Positions 5,270 to 28,713 of a DNA stretch of 64,000 nt are shown here, piece by piece. Source of the DNA: Tetrahymena thermophila SB210 (Eukaryota; Ciliophora; Oligohymenophorea; Hymenostomatida; Tetrahymenidae); NCBI RefSeq assembly GCF_000189635.1, contig NW_002476554.1:587493-651492 (forward strand), given 5' to 3'. The notes under the pieces are model-generated. The model had not been told where the DNA came from. It ran no database searches and saw only the letters and a list, made by a program, of their open reading frames with translations. The position numbers and the translations under genes were made by a program. Position 1 is the first letter of the stretch. Every line of letters begins with the position of its first letter.

Positions 5270-6563
5270 TTTTATTTTATCTATTTATTGCTTACTTTAA
5301 AAACTTCTACTTTTGGAAAGTTAATTTTAAAATTTCCTTATATTACTTCATTCACTAAATAATAAATTTTAAAATACTGAAAGAAATAATAAATGAAGAA
5401 TAGGAAAATCTGTATGCTAGAAAAAAAGTATGGAGAAATATTAAATTTTTTTACTCGGATTGCTAAGTTATTTAAAAGTTAAAATGGTTTGAATTAAAAG
5501 TCGAAATCACTTTCCAAATAAAAGCATATTTAAAATGGATTTTTTAACTATTCCAACATAAATTACTTACTTTTAATCATTTCAATAAACTATGATTTTT
5601 CTTGTTGTTTTTTTATATAATTTATAATGCATTTATCTTTATGTATTAAAATTGAGATCATCTCATTAATTTATTCTCGAGCAGAAATTTTTCAATTTAC
5701 AAAGTGATTTAAAGTTATTTCAAGATAAAATTTCTTATTTATATTGAATTAAAATAAATGAGCTAATTAATAATCTAGACTTTCTTTTAATTATCTAAAT
5801 AAAAATTATATTTTGGAAGAAAATAATAAATAAAGTCTGGCTTATTAAGGATTTTGTTAAGAATAAAAAATTAGTAAAACAGTTAAATTATTTGAATGAA
5901 ATTAAATATCTTTCTTTTTGCAGTTAATAAATACATTTATTAAAGCTTTTGAATAAAAGGTTAGAAATTGTATTTCACGCATCTATTGTAAATAAAAATT
6001 AAAGCATTAAATTTAGAAGACATTAATCAATTCAGTAAAAAAAATTGTATTAATACATATTAAATTTGTCTATCAATATTAATCATAATAGATTACTCCA
6101 TTAAAAATTTTTTTAATTATTAATTAAATATAAAAAATTAATAAATTGTATTTTAATCATTTTTAATATTTATTTATGTTTCTTGGCTTGATTTCTCTAA
6201 TTAATCAATAAACCAGCTAAATAAGTACTTACTTAATAGCTAGCTAAATAATTCTTTGTGCTTTCCAAAATATTTAAAATTATAAAATCAAAAATAAATA
6301 AAATTTTCTTAACAAAAATATTTCATACATATTTATTTCCTTTTTAATGATAAATAAAGAAAAAAAAAATAGCAACTTTAATAATATATTATAAATAATA
6401 ATAAAAAATACACGCAAATAATAGATTTATAGATCGTTTTAATTATTAAGAGGAAGGTATTTATTTAATCTAAGAAATTAAAATATTTATGAAAGCTTTT
6501 ATATTGTTTATCTAATTATATAAAAATATTTATGCCATTCTAAGTTCATTATTGAATTTCTTT
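5270..6563. other. Intergenic: 5' flank of membrane protein gene plus duplicated 3' flank of LRR gene
   Basis: From 5,270 to about 6,065 I see only very AT-rich sequence, presumably the promoter side of the minus-strand gene starting at 5269. From about 6,066 the sequence is the duplicate of about 60-557 and forms the 3' flank of the LRR gene ending at 6564. No coding signal was seen. Confidence 0.6.
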
Positions 6564-8614
6564 TCAGAATATTATCTAAAGTTGTATTAGCTACCTCATT
6601 TTTTTGAGATTTTGTGATGCTTTACTTCTACTTTCAAAATTTACTAAGTTGAATCTGTTTCAAATTTATAATAAAGTATTTTTTTATTTTTAAAGATGAT
6701 TATATTAAATAGTGATTACGTTAAACTGATATATAAATTTAATAAGCTTTTTGATACTTTTAACCCATCTACAAACTGCACAATTCCTTAATTTACAATT
6801 TTATTTTAGCTTTGTTTTATATTTAAGTTTAATATTGTATTTAATATGCTTAATATTTACTAATAGACACCGCGCTTAAAACTAAATTATAAATATGTCA
6901 GATTTGAATATTTTCCTATTAAAGCGCCAATATTTACAAAACTTTACTAGTTTATTGTGCATTAACTATTTTTAAAAATAATTAAAGTCAATATGAGCAT
7001 ATATAGTATAATATTTTATACGATAGATCAATCCTAAATGTTTGTAGATTTTTGCATTTCTATAGTCCTTGAAAAAGACACGGTTCACCTACACCACTAA
7101 AGATTTGTCCACTTTTAATTAAATAATTTTAAAAAGTGTCAAATTAACCTTTTTAATTTCTTTTGAAGTTTTCAATAATGGTAACATTTACTTCAACATG
7201 AGCGTTAGATTTACAAGATTATTACACTCTGCTATCTAAAGACCTAATGCAGAATATCCATAATTGGTAATGTCATTATAGCTTTTAAACAATAAAAAAT
7301 TATATTTCATTAGCTGCTAGCAATAAAAATTATATACTCTGATAAGTCAAGGAATAATGACAAAAGCTTGCAACAGGCTTTAATCCCCTAGGCTAAATGG
7401 ATAATGCCTTATGAATTTATCGAATTACCTCTGTTAAACAATATTTTATATTTTATCTCAACTGAAAAAAATTACTAAAGATTTAGTTATAAAAAAGTCA
7501 GATTTTAGCACTTTCCAATTTCTGTTCCTAAAAAAGTAGCACCTTCTGAAGATATTTTGTTCCATCTTTTTTTAAACGTGTTAACATTTCATAAATTTTA
7601 TTATTGTACCTGTATAAATCAATTGATAGATATTAAAGTTTGGAAATATTTTTTATTCCACTTGCTAAACCATATGCTCCTTAAGCTTATATACTATTCT
7701 CTCTTATAATATAAAAAATATTTTTATTATAGAAATAATTTAATTATAGATCTTTAAATTAGAAACAAACAAATAAAAATCAGGAATTTGTAATTAATTT
7801 TAAAATGATTAAATTATTATTAACTATAAATTTAAGATTAGTTGCTCTAAACTTTAATTCTGACCTATTCCATTGGCTAATCCAGTAATCTCTTCATCTT
7901 TTAATCTATTTTTGCTTTTTAAATCAAGTAAATAAGAAAAATCATATATTGTTTAAAATAATATTTTCAAAATAGTTCATTTAAAAATATAATTTTTAAA
8001 CTATAAAAAAAAAATTTTTGAATATAATACGATATATTGAGATTTAAATTAATTAAATTATTGCATTTTCCTAATGAGTTTCCTAATTCGGTAGCTCCCT
8101 ATAAGCAAATATTATTATCCCTATATGTAATAAAAATAAATTTATTTTGTAAATGTAAAATAAAAAATTTAAATATCTAAATTTAGTTAATTTATAAAAT
8201 TAAAGGATATTATGTTCTTATTTTAATAAAGTATTCAAAATATACGAGATGTTAAGGGTTAATGATGAAAGATTTTTGCAGTCAAATAAAGCTTCTCCTA
8301 ATTTAGATGCACCAACATCATTTAATTTATTTTATCTTAAATTAATATTTTAAAACAAAATAATTTTTATAACTGGCCAAAATTAAATAATATGATTAAT
8401 GAATTATGTTTACTGAACATTAAGCATTAAAGAAATTAGGTTCTGACATTTTTTAAAAAACAGACATAAATTCGATATCTCATATTCCTCTTTTAATTTT
8501 GAACTTTATTTATTTAATTATTACCATGTGAGATTAAAAGTTTTTAAAAAGAACTTTAAACTACTCTAACTGAAATGAAAGATTAAAACTGTCTTCTAAA
8601 CTACTTTCTAGAAT
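6564..8614 (-). CDS. Leucine-rich-repeat protein gene, one repeat per 90- or 93-nt exon (5' end unresolved)
   Basis: The LRR exons read on the minus strand are 8503-8414, 8335-8246, 8120-8031, 7914-7825, 7702-7610, 7565-7476, 7430-7338, 7281-7192, 7111-7022, 6965-6876 and 6809-6720. The last exon, 6654-6564, ends in TGA. Each LRR exon is 90 nt (two are 93), begins in phase 2 and encodes one repeat such as ISSEGATFLGTEIGKCQNL or ITNYGYSALGLQIAECNNL. The terminal exon ends LKKMRQLIQLQIIF, parallel to the end of the plus-strand LRR gene at 25463. A further 90-nt LRR-like block (8614-8525) would need a 21-nt intron and is doubtful. The exon 6965-6876 is followed by GC, not GT. The first coding exon was not found: the upstream sequence carries small indels relative to the sister copy, so the gene may be damaged at its 5' end. 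LRR proteins of this type are protein-interaction scaffolds; the role here is unknown. Confidence 0.65.
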
Positions 8615-9262
8615 CTTATATAGATTTTAAATATAACTTTAATTATATACAACTGAAATTTAAGTTTATACTTTTTCAAGGCTATTATAAATAATATTTT
8701 ATTACATCATTTTTTTATCTCAAAGTATTTCAATACAAAGATATAAAACTATTGATTTGTGATTTCAAAAAATTTAGATTTTGATTGAAATAAATTATTA
8801 GGCTTTAAATGCTATTAATTTTGTACTAAATATCTTTTCTGATTTATTCTTATTATTTTTGATCAGAATTATGTTCAAAAAATTTTCAATACTTGAATCA
8901 AAGTTATATTTGATGTTAAAGAAGCGGTTTTATACAAACTTTAAAATTTAATTTTAAATAATTTAATAAAACTAGATTTATCTAAAATGTAATTTAGTTA
9001 GTAAATAAATTATATTTTTATTTTGTATAAAATATTAATTAAAAAAAATTTTAAAAATTTAAAAATTTAAAAAAATTAATTACATATATAAAAGTCAATT
9101 AATAATAGCAGCTATTAATTTTTTTAAAGTATTATTTTTATTTATTTTATTAATTAATTTAAAAAAAATAAGTTTTAATTCTATTATTAATCTAAAATTT
9201 AATGAATTACAAAACAATCAAATAAATTTTATTTAGTTTTTTAACTTTTTTATCCAAACAAT
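8615..9262. other. 5' flank of LRR gene, including a segment found three times in the window
   Basis: The stretch about 8,900-9,036 is repeated at about 2,720-2,863 and, more diverged, at about 25,640-25,800. In the first two places it lies just upstream of a minus-strand LRR gene. From about 9,060 the larger duplication unit starts. No gene was recognised in it. Confidence 0.5.
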
Positions 9263-12040
9263 TCATTAATTTAATTAGCTTTAGCCCTTTGGGTTAGAAT
9301 TCTCAAATTTATGAATTTCACTTTATTTTAGCTCAGCTTCATTTCCCGCTATATCTGAATACATACTCTTCTCAGTATCTAATCGGGGACTTAATATGTG
9401 GTTATCTTTTGCTATGGTAAGCATCTGCTAGTTTTCGCTTTTTGGACTGAAGATGTATTGATGCTCTTCTTTTGTATTTGGAGCTGGTTAATTTTTTAAT
9501 TTAGAATTGGATATATCTTAAATTTTTTCATTTTTATCATCATCAGAGTTCGAATTGGATACAGAAATAGACTAGATCTATATTTTATCTTTCACATTTT
9601 TAAGTACTGAAGTTGGATCCAAAGATTAAGAAACTTCAATATTTTATGGTATTAGTTAAATATTTTAAATTAAAGAATCTCTTTAATTCTGGCTAAATCC
9701 AAATAATGAAAGTAGCTTTTAATCCAAAAGCTGTATTATTTTAATATCCAGAGCACTTAAATTTTCTTTATTTGCTATATTCTGATATGCTTAATAAGCT
9801 TACTGAGCCTTTTAAAGTTCTGTCCTGTTATCTTAATAATGATCATCTATTTCAAATTGAATGTCTTCTGCCTTTTTACAAAATCCATAGTTTGACCTAA
9901 TTGTAGGCTTGGGGATGTATTCAAATAATTTAAGCTAATCAGGATTGAGGAGTATGTTCTTTAGCTTATCAACTTCCATCAGTTTTTTAATAACATAGAG
10001 AACATCTAAATGATAATAAAGCTAATCTATGCTATAATCAATAACCTTCTTTTTTTGTTAAATCTTTTAGCCAAATGGCCACAGAAAGAACTTCAAATAC
10101 TCTAATGTATTTAGAGTCATGCTACTTGTCGCTTTTTACATCAATCTTTTAAAAACGCTTTCCTTTAACTTTTGCTCTTTTTCTTCTAATTTTTATTACT
10201 GCTATTTCAATTTATAATGGTCTGAAGACAAGTGAAAATTGTACTCTTCTTAATGACCATTGCTTTTTACTGTTGAATTTTTGTTTTATATTAAGTAGGA
10301 TAAAAATTATTTTTCATTTTCATCTTACTGTTGTGGATTTACTGAAATTTATTGCTTGCTTGATAGCATGTCTTCTAAACCTTTTTTTTCTTCACAAGCA
10401 TGCAACTAAATTTCAGGTTTAATATTATTTCTAAACGAGCTTCTCTTTGTACCTAAATTTTGGTTTGTATTGCATTAGATTGTTTAATTGATAAAAGATT
10501 ATTAATGACTTTAATTTATATTTCCATTAAATGAAATCGATTGGTTATTATTATTGCTATAAGATTGATTAGGGTCGATTGAAATTGGCTTTATCAAATT
10601 ACCTTTATTATCAGATTAATTTATACAAGGCTGATCTTACTTAAAAAGCTATTTGATTTAATGTTTTTGATTTTGATTTTACTAATTGTTTTCAAATTTT
10701 TTTTTAAGTTAACTTTATTACATATTATCAAAAGAAACATCTTAACTAATTGGCGGGCTAATATTTTATTAAACACAAGCAGCCATTTCATTTTAACCAT
10801 TTAGTTTATACATTTTGAATACTTTCTCTTCTTCAAAGTTAACATTTTCATAGTTGAATGCTTCATTTATAATTTCTTTGTTTAGGTCAAGCTGAGATAA
10901 CCTTGAGCATATTATAAAACCTATAGCGAGTAAAGACTAAGTAAACCCTCCTATTTGGGAAATTATATCATTTAAATTTTAATACTTCCTAGTGTAAAGA
11001 TTCTCTTTTTATTTTTCAAAGCGAAAGACTAATTAGAAAAAGAAATCTTAGAAAGAGCTTGGGTAAACCTATTTTAATAAATAAATAAATTCTTAGTTAA
11101 TTTCATCTTCAAACAAGAAAAAAAAAATTGAGGTAAAAAATAAATAGCTATTTAATTCGGTAAAATTTAATATTTAAATAAAAACTAATAAATAATCTTT
11201 TATGGTAAAATTTCATTTTCTTACATTTTATTCGGCGTAACTGAATGATGGAAAATTAACAGTCTCTATATCTGAGGTTATCCACCCATAATCACTTTAA
11301 ACGTAGTTGTTTCTCATGTAGAAATCGACTTCTTTGGGCATTTATAAGCTTGTTGAGAAAAAAGTATCTCTAGAATAATGTTTAAATGGATTTGTTTTTT
11401 GAGTAGGATCAACAATTATATCTGAAAATTACATTGAGAAAAAAGAATAACCTAATTTATTCTATATATAATCGTCGGGTTTGCAATTTTATGAGCACTT
11501 TTAAATATTAATGTTAATAAATTAGAAAGTCTCAGCATTGAAATCTCCTTCTATTTATAAATCGAAATTTAGAGGAAAACAATACATATTAGTATAGTCT
11601 ATTTATTGATAGTAATGTAGATTATCTTAATCTGGAAAATTAGCTAAAGAGCATCTTGTAATTGGTACTTAAGTTGTTATATAATTATCAGTAGGCTTAC
11701 CAGTAGTAGGATCCACCATAGTAGTTTTATGCACATTTGTAACGGTGATGTTATAAACTTGTTCATCGATGAATTAATTAAAATTAGAATCTTGCATGCC
11801 AAATGCCATTTAGAAAGTGTTTTAATTTATTGTAAATAACTTTGGGCTATCAACTTATCTCTCTTAGTAAATGACAACAGGATTAGTTCTCTACACAACA
11901 GAGGATATAATTAAAATAAGACGCAACGCTACTATGGATACTATAGCTATAGTGAAAATTGATCCAAAACGAGTATAGTGAGCTGGCTCTCTGTTAAATC
12001 TAAAAAGAATTTAGCTGCCAAAAAGATCTAACTATTTCAT
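9263..12040 (-). CDS. Two-pass transmembrane protein, ciliate-specific (copy 1)
   Basis: Two exons (12040-11225, 272 codons; 11068-9263, 602 codons with TGA) around a 156-nt intron give 873 residues. A helix at about residues 25-48 (FGSIFTIAIVSIVALRLILI) is followed by a roughly 220-residue ectodomain with several Cys. A conserved stretch, DIISQIGGFTQSLLAIGFII (about 306-325), forms the second helix. The remaining 550 residues are a Gln/Asn/Ser-rich cytosolic tail containing a short coiled-coil-like part (KLEEKEQKLKESVFKRLM) and the motif VDKLKNILLNPDQLKLF. That motif corresponds to the end block of the gene at 3047-5269, so the two look like distant members of one family. No enzymatic motif is seen and the function is unknown. 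A near-identical intact copy lies at 14939-17731. Confidence 0.88.
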
Positions 12041-13349
12041 GATTTTAGTTTGTATTATACTTAAATTTAACTAACTAACTAACTAATATTTTTGTTGGAA
12101 TTTGATTTTCTTTTGTTTTTTAATTATTACTCAATTTAATTTTCTCTATTATTTACACCAATAAATAAATAAATTTTCATTTAATGGACTTTTTAATTTA
12201 ATTACTCAATATTGAAAATCAAACATTCTAAACCAACTTGTAAGTGGATGTAAATGAAATTTATAAATTTATAAATACCTTTTCCATTTTTATTTGATTT
12301 CAGTTAAATAAATTTATTTAAAAATAAGCAGTTTTTTAACTTATGTATATTGAAAACACATGTAATTACATTTATAATAAAAGAAATAGATATTTTTAAA
12401 GTATGATTAAATTGTTTCAAACATAAAATTTTTACTTACAGACAATTAGGTATAAATAATTGTAAAAAAAGTATATTCCGAACAGAATAATAAAATTTCT
12501 AATAAGAATTTAATTAAAAATCTTCTATTAATTTTTTTAATTCAGTATCTGATATATTCATTAAATAATTTACAAAATTTACCTTTGCAATAAAAGCCTT
12601 TAAAATAGTATTTATTGGATTTTATTTGAATACTTTTGTGAAAATTAATCAATTTTGGTAAAAACAATTAAATTTTTTAATTAAATAGTGTCAATAAAGC
12701 TAATATATTGGTAATTATCAAAAGAATATTTTATCAAAGTAATACTTAATTCATCTTATTACATTTTTAAAATAAATAGCAGCACCCGAATATTCCTTAA
12801 TTAATACTAATCAAGAAGTTCTTTCTTACTAAATTTTCTTTAAATCTATAGAAATTCAGATTTATTTTCTAATTTTAGTAAAATAAAAATTTAATTTTAA
12901 TTTGAAATAGTAATAAATAAGTACATGCTTGAATCTATTTTAAAAAAATAATTTATTTCGATTGAAATTTAGAATTTTTTAAAAAGCGAGCATTAAAATA
13001 AATATAAAGATGAAAGATATTGACAAAAATTTTTTCTATTTTGATTAATTCCTGTCCGTATAGTTAGGGCAATCATAAAAATTATAATATTGATAAGGAA
13101 TAATGAGTAAACTAAATCTAATGATGCAATACTAAGATTTACAAAAAAAATTCTTATTAAAGAAATAATTATCATTTTTATTATTACAATTTATTAGCTG
13201 TAAGCTAAAAGCTGAGATCTATTTACTCCTTTATCAAAAATTTTTTAATAATCAATAAAATTTCTAATGTATTTACAATTGATGTTTAAAAGAAATATTA
13301 TTTCTGCGTAAATCTATAGAAGAATCATCTATTATTCATAAAAGTCTTT
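12041..13349. other. Intergenic, upstream of membrane protein copy 1
   Basis: AT-rich sequence between the ATG at 12040 and the tail of the truncated relative. A minus-strand frame of 60 codons (13175-12993, beginning MIIISLIRIFF) is hydrophobic and partly kept in the second unit at 18855-18643, but its end differs between copies and nothing else supports it. I see no convincing gene. Confidence 0.5.
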
Positions 13350-14535
13350 TTATTAAATTTATTTTTCTTCTTTTTATTTGGTTGTCTTGCTTACAATGAA
13401 GCCATTAACTTAATCGTTTTGAAATTCCTCACCTTCGCTTGCATTTTCTTAACCTTCAGATTCGATTACTTCTCTTTAGCTGGCAGTAGCATTTTTTTCA
13501 GAGATGCTAATATGAAATACCTTCAAATCTGGACTGCTATTGTTATTTGTTTCAATCATACTAATCTGATCGGAAAGCTTTATTGCATAATTTTACTATG
13601 TTATTGTATTATTTTCTTAGATTATCGATTGGTTTTATATTTCTTATATTGAAATTAACTTTTTCCTTTTGTGTGTATTATCTTGTTAAATTTATAACTT
13701 TACTTTTGATGAAGTAATTAATTTATTGGGGAGGATTAATTTTATTGAGAAGAAGTTAGTTAGTATTTGTTGGATCTAATTATTTTTTAGTTAAGTGTGA
13801 TTATATTGTGATTTAAAAAATTTATTATTTTTTTATTATTAATTAAAAAAGCTGTTTGCATTTTGATAGGATACCACTTTGAAGTTGAAGTAATAAATTA
13901 TCTGATTTCCTAGCTGATTATAAGCTTTAAGAATATTAATGTTTTTGTAAAAGAAATTGTTGATTGTTAGTTAAGGTTTTATTAATTTATATTCAAACTA
14001 CTTCTCTTTGAAGGTAATCCAAATAATTCTAATAACTTAAGATCAATCAATTAGTTAATACATTATCATACTATAGAATAAATTTTAATGTTCTTTATTT
14101 GCTATATTTTGATAAGCATTCAAAGCCTATTGTGCCTTTTAAAACTCAGTACTTTTATCTTAATATTAGGTATCAATATTAATCTGCAGATCTTTTTCAT
14201 TCTCTGTAAAGCCATAATTAGATGTTATTGTTGGCTTATGAATTATTTGAAAAGATTAAGTTAATCTTTATCCAATAATACCTATTTTAGTTTATCTACT
14301 TCTAAAAGCTATTTGGTTGCATTAATTGCATCTAGATAATATTAAAGTGTATCAATATTAAAATCGAAAACTTTTTTTTTCTTTTAATTTCCTAAATTGC
14401 CAAATAAGTAATTTAACACCTAAGCTCATATGGCTAGCCAATTTTAGCATTAGTTTTTTGAAAATAGACTCTTTTACTTTTTACTCTTTTTCTTCAATTT
14501 TTTATTATTATTTGTTTACTTTTTGATGATCCCTA
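13350..14535 (-). pseudogene. 5'-truncated relative of the membrane protein genes (copy 1)
   Basis: Minus-strand frames reproduce only the cytosolic tail of the neighbouring membrane protein. In order they are SIFKKLMLKLASHMSLG, NIDTLQYYLDAINATKQL, LLEVDKLKQVLLDKDQLNLF and YQDKSTEFQKAQQALNAYQN, followed by an acidic tail containing VIESEGQENASEGEEFQ. The matching parts of the intact gene include VFKRLMQKATSSMTL and LMEVDKLKNILLNPDQLKLF. The two membrane helices and the ectodomain are absent, and the pieces do not stay in one frame, with at least two frame changes near 14,420 and 14,250. I read it as the remains of an older, more diverged family member whose front was lost when the intact gene's flank was joined to it. 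A similar remnant is found in the second unit. Confidence 0.65.
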
Positions 14536-14938
14536 GAAATGAAAGCTACAAATCCTGCTATTTCTGTTTTTTTTTATTCTTTGTATTAATTTTATTAGAT
14601 CTAACCTCGATAAATCGAACCTTTTTTGAATTTGCGCTTTGCGAGTTAACGAGGTTTTACGGTATTAAAAAAATATTTATTGATGCTTTAAAGAAAAATA
14701 ATTTTTAAAGCCAATCAATTTTTGTTTTTTTAAAAATTTAGAAATTTAAAAAAATTAGTTATATATATAAAAGTCAATTAATAATAGCAACTATTACTTT
14801 TTTAAAGTATTATTTTTATTTATTTTATTAATTTTAAAAAAATAAGTTTTTAATTCTATTATTAAACTAAAATTTAATTAATTATAAAACAATGAAATAA
14901 ATTTTGTTTAGTTTTTTTAACTTTATTATCCAAACAAA

Positions 14939-17731
14939 TCATTAATTTAATTAGCTTTAGCCCTTTGGGTTAGAATTCTCAAATTTATGAATTTGAATTT
15001 ATTTTAGCTCAGCTTCATTTCCTGCTATATCTGAATACATACTGTTCTCAGTATCTAATCGGGGACTTAGTATAAGGTTATCTTTTGCTATGGTAAGCAT
15101 CTGCTAGTTTTCGCTTTTTGGACTGAAAATATATTGATGCTCTTCTTTTGTGTTTGGAGCTGGTTAATTTTTTAATTTAGTATGGGATATATCTTAATTT
15201 TTTTCATTTTTATCTTCTTCAGAGTTCGAATTGGATACAGAAAAAGATTAGATCTATATTTTATCTTTCACATTTTTAAGTGCTGAAGCTGGGTCCAAAG
15301 ATTAAGAAACTTCAATATTTTATGGTAATAGTTAACTATTTTAAATTAAATAATCTCTTTAATTCTGGCTAGATCCAAATAATGAAAGTAGCTTTTAATC
15401 CAAAAGCTGTATTATTTTAATATCCAGAGCACTTAAATTTTCTTTATTTGCTATATTCTGATATGCTTAATAAGCTTACTGAGCCTTTTAAAGTTCTGTC
15501 CTGCTATCTTAATAATGATCATCTATTTCAAATTGTATGTCCTCTGCCTTTTTACAAAATCCATAGTTTGACCTAATTGTAGGCTTGGGGATGTATTCAA
15601 ATAATTTAAGTTAATCATGATTGAGGAGTATGTTCTTTAGCTTATCAACTTCCATCAGTTTTTTAATAACATAGAGAACATCTAAATGATAATAAAGCTA
15701 ATCTATACTATAATCAATAACCTTCTTTTTTTGTTAAATCTTTTAACCAAATGGCCACAGAAAGAACTTCAAATACTCTAATGTATTTAGAGTCATGCTG
15801 CTTGTAGCTTTTTACATTAATCTTTTAAAAACGCTTTCTTTTAACTTTTACTCTTTTTCTTCTAATTTTAATTACTGCTATTTCAATTTATAATGGTCTG
15901 AAGACAAATGAAAATTGTACTATTCTTAATGACTATTGCTTTTTACTGTTTAATTTTTGTATTGTATTAAGTAGGATAAAAATTATTTTTCATTTTCATC
16001 TTACTGTTGTGGATTTACTGAAATTTATTGCTTGTTTGATAGCATGCCTTCTAAACCTTTTTTTTCTTCACACGCATGCAACTAAATTTCAGGTTTAATA
16101 TTATTTCTATACGAGCTACTCTTTGTACCTAAATTTTAGTTTGTATTGCATTAGATTGCTTAATTGAGAGAAGATTACTAATGACTTTAATTTTTATTTC
16201 CATTAAATGAAATCGATTGGTTATTATTATTATTATTATTATTATTGCTATAAGATTGGTTAGGGTCGATTGAAATTGGCTTTATCAAATTACCTTTATT
16301 ATCAGATTAATTTATACAAGGCTGATCTTACTTAAAAAGCTAATTGATTTAATGTTTTTGATTTTGTGAATTGTTTTCAATTTTTTTTTTAAGTTAACTT
16401 TATTACATATTATCAAAAAAAACATCTTAACTAATTGGCGGGCTAATATTTTATTAAACACCAGTAGCCATTTCATTTTAAGCATTTAGATTATACATTT
16501 TTAATATTTTATCTTCTTCAAAGTTAACATTTTCATAGTTGAATGCTTCATTTATAATTTCTTTGTTTAGATCAAGCTGAGATAACCTTGAGCATATTAT
16601 AAAACCTATAGCGAGTAAGGACTAAGTAAACCCTCCTATTTGGGAAATTATGTCATTTAAATTTTAATACTTCCTAGTGTAAAGATTCTCTTTTTGTTTT
16701 TCAAAGCGTATGACTAATTAGAAAAAGAAATCTTAGAAAGAGCTTGGATAAACCTATTTTATTTGTAAAAATAAATAAATTCTTAGTTATTTTCATCTTT
16801 AAACAAGAAAAAAAAAATTGAGGTAAAAAATAAATAGCTATTTAATTCGGTAAAATTTAATAATTTAAATAAAAACCAATAAATAATCTTTTATGGTGAA
16901 ATTTCATTTTCTTACATTTTATTCGGTATAACTGAATGATGGAAAATTAACAGTCTCTATATCTGAAGTTATCCAACCATAGTCACTTTAAACATAGTTA
17001 TTTCTCATTTAGAAATAGACTTCTTTGGGCATTTATAAGCTAGTTGAGAAAAAAGTATCTCTAGAATAATGTTTAAAAGGATTTGTTTTTTGAGTAGGAT
17101 CAACAATTATATCAGAAAATTACATTGAGAAAAAAGAATAACCTAATTTATTCTATATATAATCGTCGGGTTTGCAGTTTTATGAGCACTTTTAAATATT
17201 AATGTAAATATATTAGAAATTCTCAGCATTGAAATCTCCTTCTATTGATAAATCGAAATCTAGAGGAAAACAATACATATTAGTATAGTCTATTTATTAA
17301 TAGTAATGTAGATTATCTTAATCTGGAAAATTATCTAAAGAGCATCTTGTAATTGGTACTTAAGTTGTTATATAATTTTCAGTAGGCTTACCAGTAGTAG
17401 GATCCACCTTAGTAGTTTTATGTATATTTGTGACGGTGATGTTATAAACTTGTTCATCGATAAATTAATTAAAATTAGAATCTTGCATACCAAATGCCAT
17501 TTAGAAAGTGTTTTAATTTATTGTAAATAACTTTGGGCTATCAACTTATCGCTCTTAGTAAATGACAACGGGATTGGTTCTTTAAACAACTGAGGATATA
17601 ATTAAAATAAGACGCAGCGCTACTATGGATACTATAGCTATAGTGAAAATTGATCCAAAACGAGTATAGTGAGCTGACTCTCTGTTAAATCTAAAAAGAA
17701 TTTAGCTGCCAAAAATATCTAGCGATTTCAT
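14939..17731 (-). CDS. Two-pass transmembrane protein, ciliate-specific (copy 2)
   Basis: Two exons (17731-16916, 272 codons; 16753-14939, 605 codons with TGA) give 876 residues. Layout is as in copy 1: a helix near residues 25-48, a Cys-bearing ectodomain, a second helix just after the splice site, and a long polar tail. Exon 1 has exactly the same length as in copy 1. Length changes in exon 2 are whole codons: an expanded AAT (Asn) run near 16,212-16,246 and a 6-base loss near 16,367. Substitutions often leave the protein unchanged. Keeping frame through repeated indels suggests both copies are under selection, though the duplication may simply be young. Function is unknown. Confidence 0.88.
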
Positions 17732-19059
17732 GATTTTAGTTTATATTATACTTAAATTTAACTAACTAACTAATATTTTTGTTGGAATTTGATTTTTTTT
17801 TTGTTTTTTAATTATTACTCAATTTAATTTTCTCTATTAATTATTTCCACCAATAAATAAATAAATTTTCATTTAATGGACTTTTTAATTTAATCACTCA
17901 ATATTGAAAATCGAAGATTCTAAACCAATTTGTAAGTGGATGTAAATGAAATTTATAAATTTATAAATACCTTTTCCATTTTTATTTGATTTCAGCTAAA
18001 TAAATTTGTTTAAAAATAAGTGGTTTTTTAACTTATGTATATTGAAAGCACATGTTATTACATTTATAATAAGAGAAATAGATATTTTTAAAGTATGATT
18101 AAATGGTTTCAAACATAAAATTTTTACTTACAGATAATTAAGTATAAATAATTCTAAAAAAAGAATATACTGAACAAAATATTAAAATTTCTACAAAGAA
18201 TATAATTAAAAATCTAACAATTTTTTTAATTCAGTATCTGATATATCCATAAATTATTTACAAAATTTACTATTGCAATAAAAGCCTTTAAAATAGTATT
18301 TGTTGGATTTTATTTGAATACTTTTGTGAAATTAATCAATTTTGGTAAAAACAATTAAAATTTTTAATTAAATAGTGTCAATAAAGCTAATATATTGGTA
18401 ATTATCAAAAGAATATTTTATCAAAGTAATACTTAATTCATCCTATTACATTTTTAAAATAAATAGCAGCATCCAAATATTCCTTAAATTATACTAACTA
18501 ATCAAGAAGTTCTTTCTTGCTAAATTTTCTTTAAATTTATACAAATTCAGATTTATTTTCTATTTTAGTAAAATAAAAATTTAATTTTAATTTGAAGGAG
18601 TAATAAATAAGTACATGCTAGAATCTATTTTAAAAAAATTATTTATTTCGATTGAAATTTAGAATTTTTTAAAAAGCGAGCATTAAAATAAATATAAAGA
18701 TGAAAGATATTGACAAAAAATATTTGTATATTGATTAGTAAAGTTAGGGCTATCATAAAAATTATAATATTGATAAGAAATGATGAGTAAACTAAATCTA
18801 ATGATTCAATGTTAAGATTTACAAAAAAAATTCTTATTAAAGAAATAATTATCATTTTTATTATTATAATTTATTAGCTGTAAGCTAAAAGCTAAAATCT
18901 ATTTACTCTTTTATAAAAACTTTTTTAATGATCAATAAAATTTCTAATGTATTTACAATTGATGTTTAAAAGAAATATTATTTCTGCGTTAATCTATAGA
19001 AGAACCATCCATTATTCATAAAAGTCTTTTTATTAACTTTATTTTTCTTCATTTTATTT
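17732..19059. other. Intergenic, upstream of membrane protein copy 2
   Basis: Duplicate of about 12,041-13,349. AT-rich, with no convincing gene. The hydrophobic minus-strand frame at 18855-18643 is the partner of that at 13175-12993 and diverges in its second half. Confidence 0.5.
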
Positions 19060-20080
19060 GGTTGTCTTACTTACAACGAAGTCATTAACTTAATCTTTTT
19101 GAAATTCCTCACCTTCGCTTGCATTTTCTTCACCTCCAGATTCGACTACTTCTCTTTAGCTGGCAGCAACATTTTTTTCAGATATGCTAATATGAGATAC
19201 CATACCTTCAAATCTGGACTGTTATTGTTGTTTTTTTCAATCATACTAATCTGATCAGAAACTTTATTGTTTAATTTTACTATGTTATTGATATTATTTT
19301 CTTAGATTATCGATTGGTTTTATATTTCTTATATCGAAATTAACTTTTTCCTTTTGCGTGTATTATCTTGTTAAATTTATAACTTTACTTTTGATGAAGT
19401 AATTAATTTATTGGGGAGGATTAATTTTATTGAGAAGTAGTTAGTTAGTGATTGTTGGATCAAATTATTTTTTTGTTAAGTGTGATTATGTTATGATTTA
19501 AAAAATTTATTATTTTTTTATTATTAATTAAAAAAACTGTTAGCATTTTAATGGGATACCATTTTGAAGTTGAAGCAATAAATTATTAGATTTCCTAGCT
19601 TATTATAACTATTCAAATTGAATTTAGCTTTAAGAATATTAATATTATTGTAAAAGCAATTATTGATTGTTAGTTAAGGTTTTATTAATTTATATTCAAA
19701 CTACTTATCTTTGAAGGTGATCCAAATAACTCTAATAACTTAGGATCAATCAATTAGTTAGTACATTATCATACTATCCAATAAATTTTAATGTTCTTTA
19801 TTTGTTATATTTTGATAAGTCTTTTAAAACTCAGTCCTTTTATCTTAATATAGGTATAAATATTAATCTGCAGATCATTTTCATTCTCTGTAAAGCCATA
19901 ATTAGATGTTATTGTTGGCTTAGGAAGTTATTTGAAAAGATTAAGTTAATCTTTATCCAATAATATCTATTTTAGTTTATCTACTTCTAAAAGCTATTTG
20001 ACAACATTAATTGCATCTAGATGATATTAAAGTGTATCAATATTAAAATCGAAAAAATTTTTTTTTCTAGCCAATTTTAG
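19060..20080 (-). pseudogene. 5'-truncated relative of the membrane protein genes (copy 2)
   Basis: Second copy of the remnant at 13350-14535, sharing the acidic tail (19,060-19,250) and the LLEVDKLK-like segment (about 19,960-20,030). It is more eroded: a segment around 19,820 that encodes part of the KAQQALNAYQN region in copy 1 is shortened, and the 5' part is deleted to a few bases. No start codon or membrane helix remains. Confidence 0.6.
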
Positions 20081-20362: not shown

Positions 20363-23300
20363 ATGATATAATAGATTTAATATTACGAAAAATTAGAAGA
20401 AGTAATTATTTATATTTTAATGAAAATACTTTAAATTTATATTTACTAATATTAAAAGTTTTTAAGCTCTTCATTTTAATCTCACTAGGTTCTTCATATT
20501 AATCTAAGGTATATTTAATTTATAAATATTATTATTCTTATTATTAATGTTTTCTTTATTTTTAACTTTCAATTTATTTAAAATATTAATTTACAAATAA
20601 AAATTATCACCACTTTTCTATTTTTATTAACAAAAATGAATTTAAATCAAAATAAATTTTTTAATTTGTTTATTTGCTATTTATTTAATTTATTTATCTT
20701 TTTTTGTTATACTTGTGCTTTTTCTTCTTTTTCTATAAAATGATTAAAAAATATGAAATAAAAAGAAATGAATAAATAAATAATAAAAGCGAATGTTTAA
20801 AATAAAAAAATGAGTTAAATTAAGAAATAATTTTTATATTTTTTCTTCTAAATTCAAAAAGTGACAATTAAATTAGCAATTAATTTGCATCAGACTTAGG
20901 TTCTGCTTTATCAAGTTGCACTAATCTCACAAATTTGACTCTTAATCTTATGTAAAAAACTGTTTATTTGTTTTGGATTGTGATATTTTTACTTATAAAA
21001 ATGAATTTAAAATAATTTAATTCTTTTAATTTGTTTATTAGCTTTTTATTTAATTAATTTTTCTTTTTCCTTTTTTTTGTATATTATCTATTTTTTCTAC
21101 TATCATTCTTAATTTAACTCATTTTTTTTTTTTCAAGATTTGATTTTAATATTATTAATTCATTTCTTATTTTTTCTTAATTTTTTCCTTCTTACAATAA
21201 AATATTTTACTTCAATATTTAAAAAGTCACAACTAAGCCTTAGATAAAAATAGTTTTTAGTTATAAAAATGAATTTAAAATAATATAAATCTTTTAGTTT
21301 TTTATTAGCTTTTTATTTGATTTAATTTTCTTTTTCCTTTTTATTGTATTTATCTATTTTTTCTATTATCTTTTCTAATTTAACTCATTTTTTTATTTTT
21401 AACATTCTTTTTTATTATTTATTTCATATTCTTTAATCATTTTTTCCTTCGAAATAACTAATTATATCTTTTTTCTTCAATATTTAAAAAGTAACAATTA
21501 AATTGGTGATTAAGGTACATCAGACTTAGGTTCTGCCTTAGCAAATTGCACTAATCTCTCAAATTTGACACTTAATCTTAGGTAAAAACTGTTTATTTAT
21601 TTTAAATTGGGAAAAATGAATTTAAGACAATATAACTTTTAATTTGTTTAATTTAATTTCTTTTTCTTTTAATTGTATTTGTGTTTTTTTTATACTATTA
21701 TCTTTCTTAATTTAACTAATTTATTTATTTATTTTCTACATTTGCTTTTTTTATTCGTTTCTTATTATTTAAAATTTTTTAATTTTAAATAACTATTTAA
21801 TTTTTTATTTTTTCTTAAATATTTAAAAAGGTACAATTAAATTGGTGATTTAGGTTCTTCAAAATTAGGTACAGCTTTAGCAAATTGCACTAACCTCTCA
21901 AATCTATAGCTTCATCTTAGGTAAAATCTATTTATTTGTTTCGGATTGTGATATTTTTAGTTAAAAAAATGAAAATAAAATTATATAACTCATTTAATTT
22001 GTTTATTTACCTTTTATTTGATTTATTTTTCTTTTTATTTTTTATTTTTAATTGGTTTTTTTTATAATCTTTTTAATTTAACTAATTTTTTTATTTTCAA
22101 CATTTGATTTATTTATTTATTTTTCTCAAATATTTAAAAAGCTACAATTAAATTAGTGTAACAGGTGCATCAGAATTAGGTTCTGCTTTAGCAAATTGCA
22201 CTAATCTCTCAAATTTGATGCTTGATCTTGGGTAAAAACAGTTTATTTGTTTTGTATTGTGATATTTTTAGTTATAAATTTGAATTTAAAATAAAAAAGC
22301 TCTTTTTATTTGTTTATATTTTTATTTGATTTATTTTTCTTTTTTATTTGTGCTTTTTTTTTTTCTATTATCTTTCTTAATTTAGCTCATTTTTTTATTT
22401 TTAACATTTGAAATTAATTCATTTTTTAATATTTCATATTTTATAAATCGTTTTTTCCTTCTAAATAACTAATTAATTATTTATTTTTCTATCTTTAAAA
22501 AGTCACAATGAAATTAGTGCAACAGGTGCATCAAGCTTAGGTTACGCTTTAGCAAATTGTACTAACCTCTCAAATCTGGCAATTAATCTTAGGTAAAAAC
22601 AGTTTATTTGTTTTAGATTATAATATTTTTTAGTTGTTAAATGAGTTTAAAACAATATAAATCTTTTAATTACTTTATTAGCTTTTTATTTGATTTATTT
22701 TTTTCTTTTTTTTTATATTTATCGTTGTTTTTATTTTCTATTATCTAATTTTTCTTAATTTAACTAATTTTATTATTTTTAACATTTATTATTATTATTT
22801 ATTTCTTATTATTTCAAATATTTTCATCAATTTTTACTACTAAATAGCTAATAAATTAATTATTTATTTTTTCTTCATTATTTAAAAAGTAAGAATTAAA
22901 TTGGTGATTAAGGTACGTCAGACTTAGGTTCTGCTTTAGCAAATTGCACTAATCTCTAAAATCTGACGCTTTATCTTAGGTAAAAAGTTTGCTTGTTTCG
23001 GATTGAAATATTTTTAATTATAAAAATGAAATATCAAACAAAACAACCCTTTTAATTTGTTTTTTTACTTTTTATTTAATTTCTTTTTCTTTTTTATCTT
23101 ACTTGTGTTTTTTTTCTATTTTTTTTCAATTTTACTCATTTTTTTATTTCCAAAATTTGCTTTTATTATTTATTAATTTATTTCTTATACCTTCATATTT
23201 TATAAATCTTTTTTTCCTTCTAATTAACTATTTTATGATATATTTTTTCTTGAATCCTTAAAAAGTCACAATTAAATTAGAGCAATAGGCGTATCAGGCT

Positions 23301-25463
23301 TAGGTACTGCTTTAGCAAAATGCACTAATCTCTCAAATCTGACACTTTATCTTGAGTGATATTTTTAGTTAAAAAAATGAATTTAAAACAATAAATTTTT
23401 AAATTTATTTATAAGCTTTTTAGTTGATTTATTTTTCTTTTTTTACTTTACTTATGTTTTTTTTCATATATCTTTCTTTCTTAATTTAACTCATTTTTTT
23501 ATTCAACATTTGATTTTATTATTTATTTATTTACTTATTTTTATTTATTTCATATTTCTTCCTTCTAAATAACTAATTAATGATATATTTTTTCTTCAAT
23601 ATTTAAATAGTTACAATTAAATTGGTGTATCAGACTTAGGTTCTGCTTTATCAAAATGCACTAATCTCTCAAATTTGGCTCTTAGTCTTTCGTAAAAACA
23701 GTTTATTTGTTTGAATTGTGATATTTTTAGTTATAAATTCAATATAACTCTTTTAATTTCTTTATTCTCTTTTTATTTGATTTATCTTTCTTTCTCTTTT
23801 TAATTTATATTTGTGTTTATTTTCTATTATCTTTGTTAATTTAACTCATTTTTTATTTTCAACTTTTGCTTTTATTATTAATTTCTTATTATTTCATATT
23901 TTTTCTTCATTTTTAGTCCTAAATAACTAATTAATTATTTATTTTTTCTTCAATATTTAAAAAAGTGGGAATATAATTGGTGATTAAGGTGTATCAGTCT
24001 TAGGTTTTGGTTTAGCAAATTGCACTAATCTCTCAAATCTGACAATTGATCTTTAGTAAAAACAGTTTATTTGTTTAGGATTGTGATATTTTTAGTTATA
24101 ATGATGAATTTAAAACAATTTAGCTCTTTTAATTTGTTTATTAGCTTTTTATTTTATTTATTTTTTTTTTCTTTTTTATTACTACTTGTGTTTATTTTCT
24201 ATTATCATTCTTAATTTAACTCATTTTTTTATTTTCAACATTTGCTTTTATCATTCATTTCTTATTTTTCATCATTTTTTCCTTCTAAATAACTAAATTT
24301 TTTATTTTTTCTTCGATATTTAAAAAGTGAAAATGAAATTGGTAATTAAGGTACATTAGATTTAGCTTCTGCTTTAGCAAGATGTACTAATCTCTCTAAT
24401 CTGGCACTTTATCTTAGGTAATGACAGTTTATTTGTTTTAGATTATGATATTTTTAGTTATAAAAATCAAAATAAAACAATATAAAGCCCTTTTAATTTG
24501 TTTATTTGCTTTTTATTAAATTTCTTTAAAATTGTACATGTGTTTTTTTTTCTATTTTCTTTCTTAATTTAACTCAATTTTTTTATTTTCAATATTTACT
24601 TTTATTATTTGCTAATTAATTGATTTCTTATTTATATTTTTTGTTCATTTTTTCCCTCTAAATAAATAATTATTTATTTTTCTTTATATTTAATAAGTAA
24701 CAATTTAATTAGTGATTAAGGTGCATCAGAATTAGGTTCTGTTTTAGCGAATTGCACTAATCTCTCAAGTCTGACACTTAATCTTATGTAAAAGCTGTTT
24801 ATTTGTTTTAGATTGTTATATTTTTATTTATAAAAATGAATTTAAAACAATATTTTTAAGCTCTTTCAATTTATTAATTTGCTTTTTTATTTTATTTATT
24901 TTTGTTTTTCTTTTTGATTGCACTAGTGTTATTTATTCTTCTAACTTTATTAATAAAATTCGTTTTTTATTTTCAATATTTGCTTTTATTATTTATTAAT
25001 TCATTTCTTATTATTTGATATTTTTTAATTAATATTTTTTTTTTTCTTCTAAATAGCTAATTTAATAATTATATATTTTTTCTTCAATATTTAAAAAGTG
25101 ACAATTAAATTGGTGCAACAGGTGCATCAGACTTAGGTTTTGCTTTTGCAAATTGCACTAGTCTCTCAAATTTGAAACTTGATCTTAGGTAAAAATAGTT
25201 TGAATTGTGATATTTTTAGTTATAAATTTGAATTTAAAACTTTATAACTCTCTATTTTGTTTACTTGCTTTTTAATCTTTTTTTATTTATTAATTTTAAA
25301 TATAATTTTTAATTAAAAGATTTTATTCAATTTAATTTTTTTAGTATTTTATTTTAAATTAATAAAAAGTGAAGACTAATTCAATCAATTATAATAATTG
25401 AAAATAAAAAGCAAATGTATTAAATCTAAAAGATTAGTTGCCCTTTAAATACGTTTCTATTGA
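20363..25463 (+). CDS. Leucine-rich-repeat protein encoded as one repeat per exon
   Basis: Fourteen exons sum to 1,311 nt (436 residues plus TGA). Exon 1 is 20363-20508 (MIQQIQYYEKLEEV...) and the last is 25370-25463 (...KSKRLVALQIRFY). Between them are 20862-20951, 21492-21581, 21831-21920, 22142-22231, 22503-22592, 22890-22979, 23266-23355, 23611-23691, 23966-24055, 24328-24417, 24698-24787 and 25099-25188. Eleven are exactly 90 nt and one is 81 nt. All begin after AG and end before GT in phase 2, so splicing yields an unbroken 30-residue repeat with core LGSALANCTNLSNLTLNL and turn NQIGDQG. TAA codes for Gln in the turn. Introns of about 250-310 nt are related to each other (recurring gatatttttag and tttgtttattagctttttat). 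LRR arrays usually bind proteins; no other domain is seen. The LRR exons and last exon are strongly supported; exon 1 rests on frame and splice phase only. Confidence 0.85.
20862..25188 (+). repeat. Tandem array of about 360-bp exon-intron units
   Basis: Thirteen units recur at starts 20862, about 21226, 21492, 21831, 22142, 22503, 22890, 23266, 23611, 23966, 24328, 24698 and 25099. Each has a 90-nt coding block and an AT-rich intron block. Coding blocks are better conserved than introns: the phrase gcaaattgcactaatctctc recurs nearly unchanged. One unit (about 21,226-21,246) has lost its coding core. Confidence 0.92.
21226..21246 (+). pseudogene. Vestigial LRR exon inside the array
   Basis: Here the usual acceptor side (aaaaagtcacaa) is followed directly by the usual donor side (ccttagataaaaa). 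About 70 coding bases between them are missing and the donor GT is now AT. The vestige should therefore be skipped, giving one long intron 20,952-21,491. It shows that units in the array can be lost without breaking the frame. Confidence 0.7.
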
Positions 25464-25862: not shown

Positions 25863-28713
25863 TCATTTATTTTCTTAGTTTTTTAACTTTTCTAATTCAA
25901 GATTTTCTTTGTAAAATTCAATATCGTTAATTCTAAATTTATCTTCTTCCTCATCTTCATTTTGATTTTCTGATTTTTCTTAATTATTTTTTTCATTTTA
26001 AATGTATGGCATTTATAATAATTTAAGTCTTTCTTCAAGCTGCTTAATTATTTTTATAACTTCTTCGGTAATTTCAGATTCAGGCAATTATGAGAAACCC
26101 CAAGTTAGAATATAAGTTTGATCATAGTTAATATTTTTTAAGTTAAGACTTTCTTGTGTTTTTTCTAAAAATTTGTTGATTAAATCTTTGTTGATACAAT
26201 TAACTTCAAGATAACTTCTAAAGCAATAAATAAACTCTTCAGGAGACATTTCATCTAATAATTCTATCATCTGTTCTTAAAGATCAACAAACATGTCATA
26301 GCTATCATATTCCTCGAATTTAGTATAACTCCATAATATCATGCTTAGATCCCAGCAGTCTAATTCCTTTCTATCCCTCAAGATAATTCCTCTCATAAAT
26401 TCAATACTGTAAATTGTTAAAGGGTGGTTTTAGGTATAAGCCCACAATAGCTATGCACAGTCTTTTCCTTTTAAGATATTAAATCTGTTTTAAATTTCTT
26501 TTTCTACTTTTTAGTAAAATTCAGATGAGCCTTTCTGTACTCTTGCAAAACTCCAAACCAAAGTGCTTAAATCTTTAACACTAAAATCTTTTAGCTTTAT
26601 CAAAGAAGCCTTTTTTTATAAATTTTGTAAAATTTTTAATTTATTAAATTGTTTTCTTTTACTAATTTAATAAGAATTTTGTTAAATTTTCTTAAAATAT
26701 ATAAAAAGTATTTTTAATTAGAATGTTTTTTAATTAATTTATCAAAATTTACTTCTTCTGCTTTTTTATAAAATAAATCTCCTTTGTTTGTTTCTGCAAC
26801 TGTGAATCCCCAGGTGCATTTAGCTAATAATTCAGGAGACATGTTGTGAGACATAGAAACAAGTTTGTTTTCTACCACTGTGTAAAATTTATCTGAACCA
26901 ATTGAGTTTTCGCAATAGTTAAAAAATATTAAAGGAAGTGTTTATTCGTTTAGTTTTTCTAAATTTTTAAGCACAAAAGCTTCAACTGCAGCGAAAACAG
27001 TCTTTTTAGATTCACTTCTATTAGAAGCAATGATTAATATTTTATTGATTTGTTGGATGTTGAAATCTTCAATTAGCAAAAATATTCTCTCCTCAAGACT
27101 TCTAAAGAGTAAATCTGATCCCATACCTATCTTAATATAGCTGTAAAAGATTGCAATTAATTCTTAAGGATTAATAAATCTGCAAATTTTTAAAATTCTC
27201 TTCTCAAAAATATTCATCATTTTTAATCTGCTATCATGTTTTTCATTTTAATTATTAGAATAGTGTGTAATCAGCTTTGTTAAAGCCTCAATACTAATTT
27301 CATCTATGTTATCACCAATTAAAGTCTCAATTGTTTCATAAAAATCGTTACTTCCTTTTCATTATAGATATTTCAAAATTAGAAAGTTATTAAATAATTC
27401 TAATATGTTTTCAAAAATAGCTATTTAGCCTAAATTAAATTGTTTGAATATTACCCATAAAAATTGGTTAAATTAAAATATATAAATCAATATGTTTTTA
27501 GAAAAAATGATAATGATTAGCATTTGCTGTATGTTAAAGAGAAGAGTAAAGCAATCTATAAATTTATTTTAAATATCTTTTAATTGCTCAATATAAAATA
27601 GTCCTTCAACTTATTTCCTTAAATGATATTATGAACTTGATATTTAATAAAAATTTATGGATTATCAATAAACTGCTCCAATCATTTAAAAATTATTAAA
27701 AAGAAAATAACACTCTATAAAAAATATCATTTATATTAAAATAGTAGAATAATTTATTTATATTTTTCAAATAAATCCAAAATTATTTTTACATTTTTCT
27801 AAAAAAATAAATAAACACTTCTTTGGCTTTGTAAATATATTTTTTCAGTTAATTTATGAATTTAAAAAATGATATCTTGTATAATCATTACCTTAATTTG
27901 CATTTCTGTAGAGCTAAAGTAAAGCATACATTTTTTCAAAGTTAGGAATCTAATGGACTTGGACATCTTTTAAAAGCTCATTTTCAAAAATTTCAAAGAA
28001 GCACTCCATTTCTACATTTTTAATAATATTTGTAATATTTATTTATTTATTGATTACTTTATTTAAATTAAAAATTATCAATTTTAATAATTACCATGAG
28101 CATTGATATAATTAACACTGGATAATAATAACACTTTATCATTGGTAGAAAAATTAACATAATTGCTTGCAACAAAACCATTGAAGCACTCCCAAAGAGA
28201 AGGGTGATCGATTTATTAGACAGAGCAAAATGCAAAAAATAAGCAAAATTGTCTGAAATCTTTGAATAAATAGGACTTTTCTGCTCTCTCCAACAGTAAA
28301 TCTTGGAAATCCTTTCTTTCTAGAATGTTCTTGTTGTTAACTGTTTAAGATATTTTAGATAACAATTGAATAAAATTTTCTTCTATAAATGGCTGCTCAA
28401 ACTTGTATTCCTTTAGATATTTATCAAGCATTTCGTTTGCTTCCTTTATCTACTTTTAGCTCTCTTCAGGTGTGATATAAAAATCTTTTGTAAATGGCTT
28501 GCGTATCATAAATTTCTTTTCTTCTTTGTATAATTTTAATTGCTCCTTAAGTATTTCAGATCTCTCTTTACTTTTCTTGCTTTCATCTTTTTATTTACTT
28601 ATGTTGAAAATGCCAAATCTTAATTTATTATATAAACTCTTTTAATTCTATTATTTCAATTGCTTGCCACAGCCTCTTAAAACTATTCCCAATGACTTTT
28701 AAAGAAAATTCAT
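25863..28713 (-). CDS. Probable mitochondrial helical-repeat protein (FAST/OPR-like pattern)
   Basis: Exons 28713-28095, 28011-27892, 27354-26753 and 26609-25863 join in frame to 695 residues ending in TGA. The chosen start begins MNFLQKSLGIVLRGCGKQ, a basic amphipathic N-terminus like a mitochondrial presequence. An in-frame ATG at 28842 would add 43 residues. The body is helical with recurring Trp-centred motifs: AKCTWGFTVAET, STLVWSFARVQKGS, AQLLWAYTQ, SMILWSYTKF and ILTWGFSQL. These resemble the repeats of organellar RNA-binding FASTK/RAP and OPR families, but no RAP domain is visible, so the call is by pattern only. The C-terminus is acidic (NEDEEEDKF). Part of the 537-nt second intron (about 27,362-27,610) is also open in the frame of exon 3 and reads like protein, but a TGA at 27359-27361 separates them. 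The exon 3 start is therefore uncertain. Confidence 0.65.

Follow-up and report, generated by a model that had tools for sequence, protein, structure and literature searches.

Genes in which each short exon encodes one leucine-rich repeat (LRR) have been described in ten Tetrahymena species by Xiong et al. (2019, PMC6564038). We examine a gene of this kind at positions 20363-25463 (+) of a 64,000-nt stretch of the T. thermophila SB210 genome (contig NW_002476554.1), which we call the window. The published account counts ~1,500 such genes in T. thermophila and reports a bias toward phase 2 introns, a 347-bp unit, a junction residue, from 1 to 51 exons, and an intron length of ~257 nt in T. thermophila and 232 nt in T. 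malaccensis (PMC6564038). The youngest genes, group III, are characterized by a place in pericentromeric or subtelomeric parts of the germline genome, beside REP elements. As the mechanism, the authors propose that exons were shuffled by unequal crossing-over, with a possible part for REP retrotransposition. They see relaxed purifying selection in the higher Ka/Ks (ratio of nonsynonymous to synonymous change) of young LRR genes, whose median is ~0.4, and give RNA-seq support for another gene in the legend to S8b. With the group III genes so described, the window gene shares 90-bp exons, phase 2 introns of about 257 nt that are related to one another, six conserved leucines and a variable exon number; it departs from them in an 81-nt exon and a decayed exon. 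Both this kind of gene and its capacity to change repeat number are thus already in print (PMC6564038), and the window gene itself is one more case of the described family.

A comparable arrangement is found in the LRR-ROCO genes of brown algae (PMC11378527), where positive selection is reported at repeat sites 14, 16, 18 and 19 on the concave face; by our own count, these are x3, x5, x7 and x8 of the LxLxxN motif. As in the window gene, each phase 2 exon encodes one LRR and exons are shuffled. The algal genes differ in their 72-bp exons, 23-residue LRRs, ROC-COR GTPase part and RNA isoforms (PMC11378527), whereas the window gene has 90/81-nt exons and ~30-residue repeats of the ribonuclease-inhibitor (RI) type, gives no ROC-COR match above threshold in a Pfam scan at E <= 0.001, and ends 94 nt into its last exon. 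The intron falls at x7 in the window gene and, on our reading of the exon frame, after the strand in LRR-ROCO. Because it has neither the ROC-COR part nor 72-bp exons, the window gene is not a member of the LRR-ROCO family; by analogy, it may work as the LRR part of the algal receptors works.

Gonadotropin receptors are single vertebrate genes with a transmembrane part and are not known to have undergone mass expansion, and in this they differ from the Tetrahymena family. Their LRR exons resemble those of the window gene in having one LRR per exon and phase 2 introns (PMC11378527).

Anatomy of the gene and its predicted product

Between a first exon of 146 nt and a last exon of 94 nt, the gene has twelve LRR exons, of which eleven measure 90 nt and one 81 nt (Table 1). 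The 90-nt exons form a run of seven (20862-23355), followed by the 81-nt exon and four more. Its spliced coding sequence of 1311 nt specifies 436 amino acids and is open under ciliate code 6, in which TAA and TAG encode glutamine. All 13 introns are GT-AG and interrupt the open frame in phase 2. An earlier note on this DNA had predicted the twelve blocks, each preceded by AG and followed by GT in phase 2, and every one lies where it was placed; the upstream frame and terminal TGA exon predicted with them fit the same splice phase. The recurrence of about 360 bp given there corresponds to 3′ splice sites 311-401 nt apart, except for the first pair (630 nt); the spacing from the last LRR block to the last exon is 271 nt. 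G+C content is 30% in the exons and 11-16.5% in the introns. The LRR exons average 0.796 nucleotide identity and the introns can also be aligned (median 274 nt for the inner 11), in agreement with the proposal that whole exon-intron units were copied.

The plus strand carries 12 blocks of the form AG/block/GT that bear the LRR motif and the minus strand carries none; 300 first-order Markov copies of the region likewise yield none. Motif-free blocks of this form are frequent (72 on the plus and 63 on the minus strand in 64 kb); since these arise so commonly by chance, the evidence consists of motif, register and spacing taken together. The gene contains no in-frame TGA, compared with a mean of 7.9 in 2000 mononucleotide shuffles, none of which is TGA-free.

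Two irregularities interrupt the array. LRR exons 1 and 2 stand farther apart than the rest because a decayed thirteenth unit lies between them, its exon cut to 17 nt and its donor GT replaced by AT. Units are therefore also lost here by decay within what becomes a longer intron. The 81-nt block can alternatively be read as 90 nt, using a weaker donor at 23701.

The product is predicted to consist of a short conserved N-terminal segment, twelve RI-like LRRs of ~30 residues and a short C-terminal cap, and we infer that it is a soluble recognition protein. Pfam families LRR_6, LRR_4, LRR_5 and LRR_1 are matched above their cut-offs, and the scan described above returns LRR families only. We number the exon product J-1-2...29, where J is the residue whose codon the intron splits. 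Leucine/phenylalanine or isoleucine occupies positions 12, 16, 22, 25, 27 and 29 of the 29-residue product. The stretch from position 25 to position 4 has the pattern L x L x L J 1 N x I, placing 28, J and 1 at x5, x7 and x8 of LxLxxN, and all introns fall between the second and third base of the x7 codon. In sequence alignment, the LxLxxNxI register agrees with RI-type repeats of solved structures; RI-like LRR proteins in the PDB (RanGAP/Rna1p, DRC5 and NLRX1) have the same repeat type and register. In LRR proteins, the residues at x5, x7 and x8 point outward from the concave strand.

Repeat number among paralogues and history of the array

We searched the window and 20 further 9.9-kb regions (21 sources) with a profile built from the window's eleven 90-nt exons; the additional regions were picked as the best DNA matches to one exon and are a non-random sample that favours close relatives. 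The profile matches 290 places, the window's own exons included, and 271 of these have a length of exactly 90 nt with an open phase 2 frame. The remainder comprises 10 of another length in frame, 3 out of frame, 5 without a splice site within 12 nt and 1 partial match. From its ATG onward, the first exon has a match in 19 of the 20 other loci, and the ATG is kept in 22 of 23 first exons (window gene included). The last exon finds some match in 19 of the 20 loci, several of them short. Fifteen genes, the window gene among them, could be closed at both ends and 8 of 23 could not; counting exactly-90-nt exons only, the closed genes contain 3, 6, 7, 8, 9, 9, 10, 10, 10, 10, 11, 11, 13, 14 and 14. 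That genes with like first and last exons differ so widely in unit number supports an engine for changing repeat number, as the earlier note had proposed, and agrees with its point that units can be added or dropped without shifting the frame.

Introns between the 90-nt exons of the 21 sources have a median of 262 nt (n = 233), near the T. thermophila value and not that of T. malaccensis (PMC6564038). The telomerase gene of the same assembly also points to T. thermophila: it agrees with PDB chain 6d6v_A, from that species, at every residue of two exon stretches that span about residues 430 to 641 of the chain and are broken only by an intron. In the 20 paralogous regions (L010-L029), 17 of these 233 introns measure 430-900 nt; some contain an exon of another length, and in the others a simple scan finds nothing exon-like. 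Lost units may be common among these paralogues. The single first exon with ATT for ATG lies at position 4217 on the minus strand of L029, and this paralogue is possibly a dead copy.

The window gene is very probably a protein-coding T. thermophila group III 90-bp-exon LRR gene whose units would be shuffled in the germline without breaking the frame. Each exon would supply one repeat's worth of protein, with the cuts falling within the beta strand. Since units start and finish in phase 2 throughout, germline-nucleus recombination among them, whether unequal crossing-over or conversion and whether inside one gene or from gene to gene, would change the number and order of repeats and leave the frame intact. 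We infer both the splicing of the window gene and the role of germline recombination in changing repeat number. Exon skipping at the RNA level could in principle alter unit number and order instead of changes in the DNA: the internal exons are all symmetric, so that the frame would survive skipping, and the 72-bp phase 2 LRR exons of the brown-algal analogue do yield such isoforms (PMC11378527). Yet unit number varies between paralogues in the DNA itself, and we regard skipping as the main source of variation as extremely improbable; the available text of PMC6564038 contains no mention of exon skipping or alternative splicing.

Several observations weigh against this reading. The exon-intron model is a prediction from the DNA sequence. 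Adjacent units are no more alike (0.793 identical, 10 pairs) than non-adjacent ones (0.797, 45 pairs). One unit is decayed and one intron lacks its usual start, which would fit slow decay of the locus. The overall ratio of nonsynonymous to synonymous substitution (dN/dS) between the window gene's exons is 1.07, a value that alone also fits relaxed constraint. Finally, the placement in group III is by the described features, every tested one of which the gene fits; in the paper, that group is defined by consensus repeats, of which there are eight.

Some of these same features could point to a member of the family that is decaying into a pseudogene yet still looks intact, namely the decayed unit in intron 2, the truncated intron start after 23355 and a dN/dS of about 1 between units. 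A pseudogene is very unlikely in view of the missing in-frame TGA codons, the 13 phase 2 introns with intact GT-AG ends, the restriction of length change among the twelve blocks to in-frame change, and the conservation of scaffold residues within the gene (dN/dS 0.23, for a residue set chosen from the consensus).

Recent tandem duplication inside the gene was also considered and is not supported, since neighbouring units are no more alike than distant ones. The best or tied-best sampled partner of the eleven 90-nt exons lies in the same gene for 6 and elsewhere for 5, and whole-genome searches with three exons place the best other match outside the gene each time. Given the equal likeness of adjacent and distant units and these outside matches, recent duplication of neighbouring units did not build the array, and older copying or gene-to-gene exchange is the better fit. 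The proposed repeat-number engine is supported as regards differing unit numbers among paralogues, for which unequal crossing-over has been proposed (PMC6564038), and finds no support as regards recent local duplication.

Excess residue change at x5, x7 and x8

A motif-picked exon set, in which the scaffold is fixed and from which 7 minus-strand exons of the window were left out, was replaced by the 271 exons of the motif-free profile search. Among these, variability is greatest at position 1 (3.74 bits), followed by J (3.5 bits; 17 residue kinds at 216 junctions) and 28 (2.93 bits). The positions of the leucine scaffold (12, 16, 22, 25, 27 and 29) are among those of lowest entropy, a conservation that is partly built in because exons whose scaffold is conserved are preferentially recovered by the profile search.

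To compare change with a neutral expectation, we used 100 disjoint nearest exon pairs that differ at 1 to 14 sites (71 exons remain unpaired), recognizing that pairs may share ancestry and that recombination blurs the pairing. Base-by-base rates come from the intron flanks of these pairs after alignment. Residue changes number 54 at position 28 (x5) against 28.2 expected (p = 7e-8) and 55 at position 1 (x8) against 30.4 expected (p = 3e-7). At J (x7), which was scored as base change and not as residue change, the first two bases carry 57 changes against 27.2 expected (p = 5e-10). Position 26 (x3) shows 42 against 32.9 expected (p = 0.056). Outside x5, x7 and x8, there is no significant rise among the 30 positions, and the leucines fall far below expectation. 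Codons with synonymous changes number 157 against 180 expected, so the neutral model is not set too low. Positions 28, J and 1 lead in within-locus and between-locus pairs alike. The same three also lead among the 37 pairs with <=8 differences (19 vs 8.0, 17 vs 7.7 and 14 vs 7.8), a subset in which position 28 (p = 0.02) fails correction for 30 tests.

This excess could instead reflect a mutational or recombinational effect at exon ends. The x7 and x8 codons sit at the two extremes of the exon and only one codon separates x5 from x7, and third positions of the x5, x7 and x8 codons are more divergent than elsewhere; in these mostly two-fold codons, such changes can be amino-acid changes. However, change is not raised in the intron bases that adjoin the exon, nor in the codons of the leucines that flank and separate these residues. 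Single-step synonymous changes per site amount to 0.065 for x3, x5 and x8 together, compared with 0.062-0.092 elsewhere (x5 and x8 alone give 0.097 from 9 changes), and the overall synonymous count lies below its expectation. We consider an exon-end effect unlikely.

The pattern hints that residues facing a binding partner may have been diversified by selection. It resembles the positive selection reported at concave sites of the brown-algal ROCO genes (PMC11378527), although the two gene families are unrelated. We think it rather probable, with some reservation, that the 90-bp-exon LRR genes form a germline-shuffled recognition repertoire in which diversifying selection acts on x5, x7 and x8 of units that have diverged recently, and in which the intron lies inside the x7 codon so that each exchange of units brings two half-codons together at a residue of the binding face. 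This last effect is modest because 200 of the 271 exons begin with T. The earlier note had suggested variable binding proteins as the outcome, and site-specific diversification would fit that suggestion. In the available text of PMC6564038, we find no residue-specific excess at x5, x7 and x8 and no mention of positive or diversifying selection, hypervariable, concave or ligand, and among the titles listed in a search of one open-access library, none treats site-specific selection in Tetrahymena LRR genes. Diversification at the level of residues would be a modest addition to a known gene family.

If diversifying selection is indeed at work, the Ka/Ks rise that has been read as relaxed constraint would be partly positive selection at three positions, and a single-celled grazer would possess a binding face selected to vary through the very residues that do so in candidate immune receptors of brown algae. 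Should the site-specific excess hold genome-wide in a codon model, the function of ~1,500 T. thermophila genes would become a testable question.

NG86 ratios ignore the strong AT bias and our conclusions are not based on them. In the window gene alone they are highest at positions 6 and 7 (3.67), a peak that the larger sample (0.71 and 0.91) does not show; the 'rest' class gives 1.17-1.34.

Feature coordinates and neighbouring sequences

Table 1. Features of the window gene and of a second LRR gene, in window coordinates.
Feature	Position	Strand	Remarks
First exon, ATG, 146 nt, leaves phase 2	20363..20508	+	ATG start matched in 19/20 other loci
LRR exon 1, 90 nt	20862..20951	+	
Intron 2, 540 nt	20952..21491	+	contains decayed unit
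Remnant of lost LRR exon, 17 nt	21227..21243	+	donor GT to AT; from alignment; unit-like intron sequence on both sides
LRR exon 2, 90 nt	21492..21581	+	
LRR exon 3, 90 nt	21831..21920	+	
LRR exon 4, 90 nt	22142..22231	+	
LRR exon 5, 90 nt	22503..22592	+	
LRR exon 6, 90 nt	22890..22979	+	
LRR exon 7, 90 nt	23266..23355	+	donor GTGATA; beginning of its intron deleted
LRR exon 8, 81 nt	23611..23691	+	in-frame 9-nt loss; 90-nt reading to 23700 possible, weaker donor
LRR exon 9, 90 nt	23966..24055	+	
LRR exon 10, 90 nt	24328..24417	+	best other genome match 90%
LRR exon 11, 90 nt	24698..24787	+	
LRR exon 12, 90 nt	25099..25188	+	
Last exon, 94 nt, TGA end	25370..25463	+	expected place after array in 14 other genes
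Motif-matched exons of second LRR gene	1177-1266, 2061-2150, 7192-7281, 7476-7565, 7825-7914, 8031-8120, 8246-8335	-	

The second LRR gene, which also has 90-nt phase 2 exons but is far more diverged, lies on the minus strand in two copies ~89-91% alike, at 128-2909 and 6115-9080. A 5.3-kb tandem duplication (9049-14315 and 14728-20000, 93% identical) ends ~360 nt upstream of the window gene's ATG; it carries minus-strand reading frames with no Pfam match among those scanned. Also on the minus strand, a reading frame at 26600-27358 has a FAST_1 match below cut-off (20.7 vs 27.4 bits), and one at 51652-53139 matches EamA and nucleotide-sugar transporter families above cut-off.

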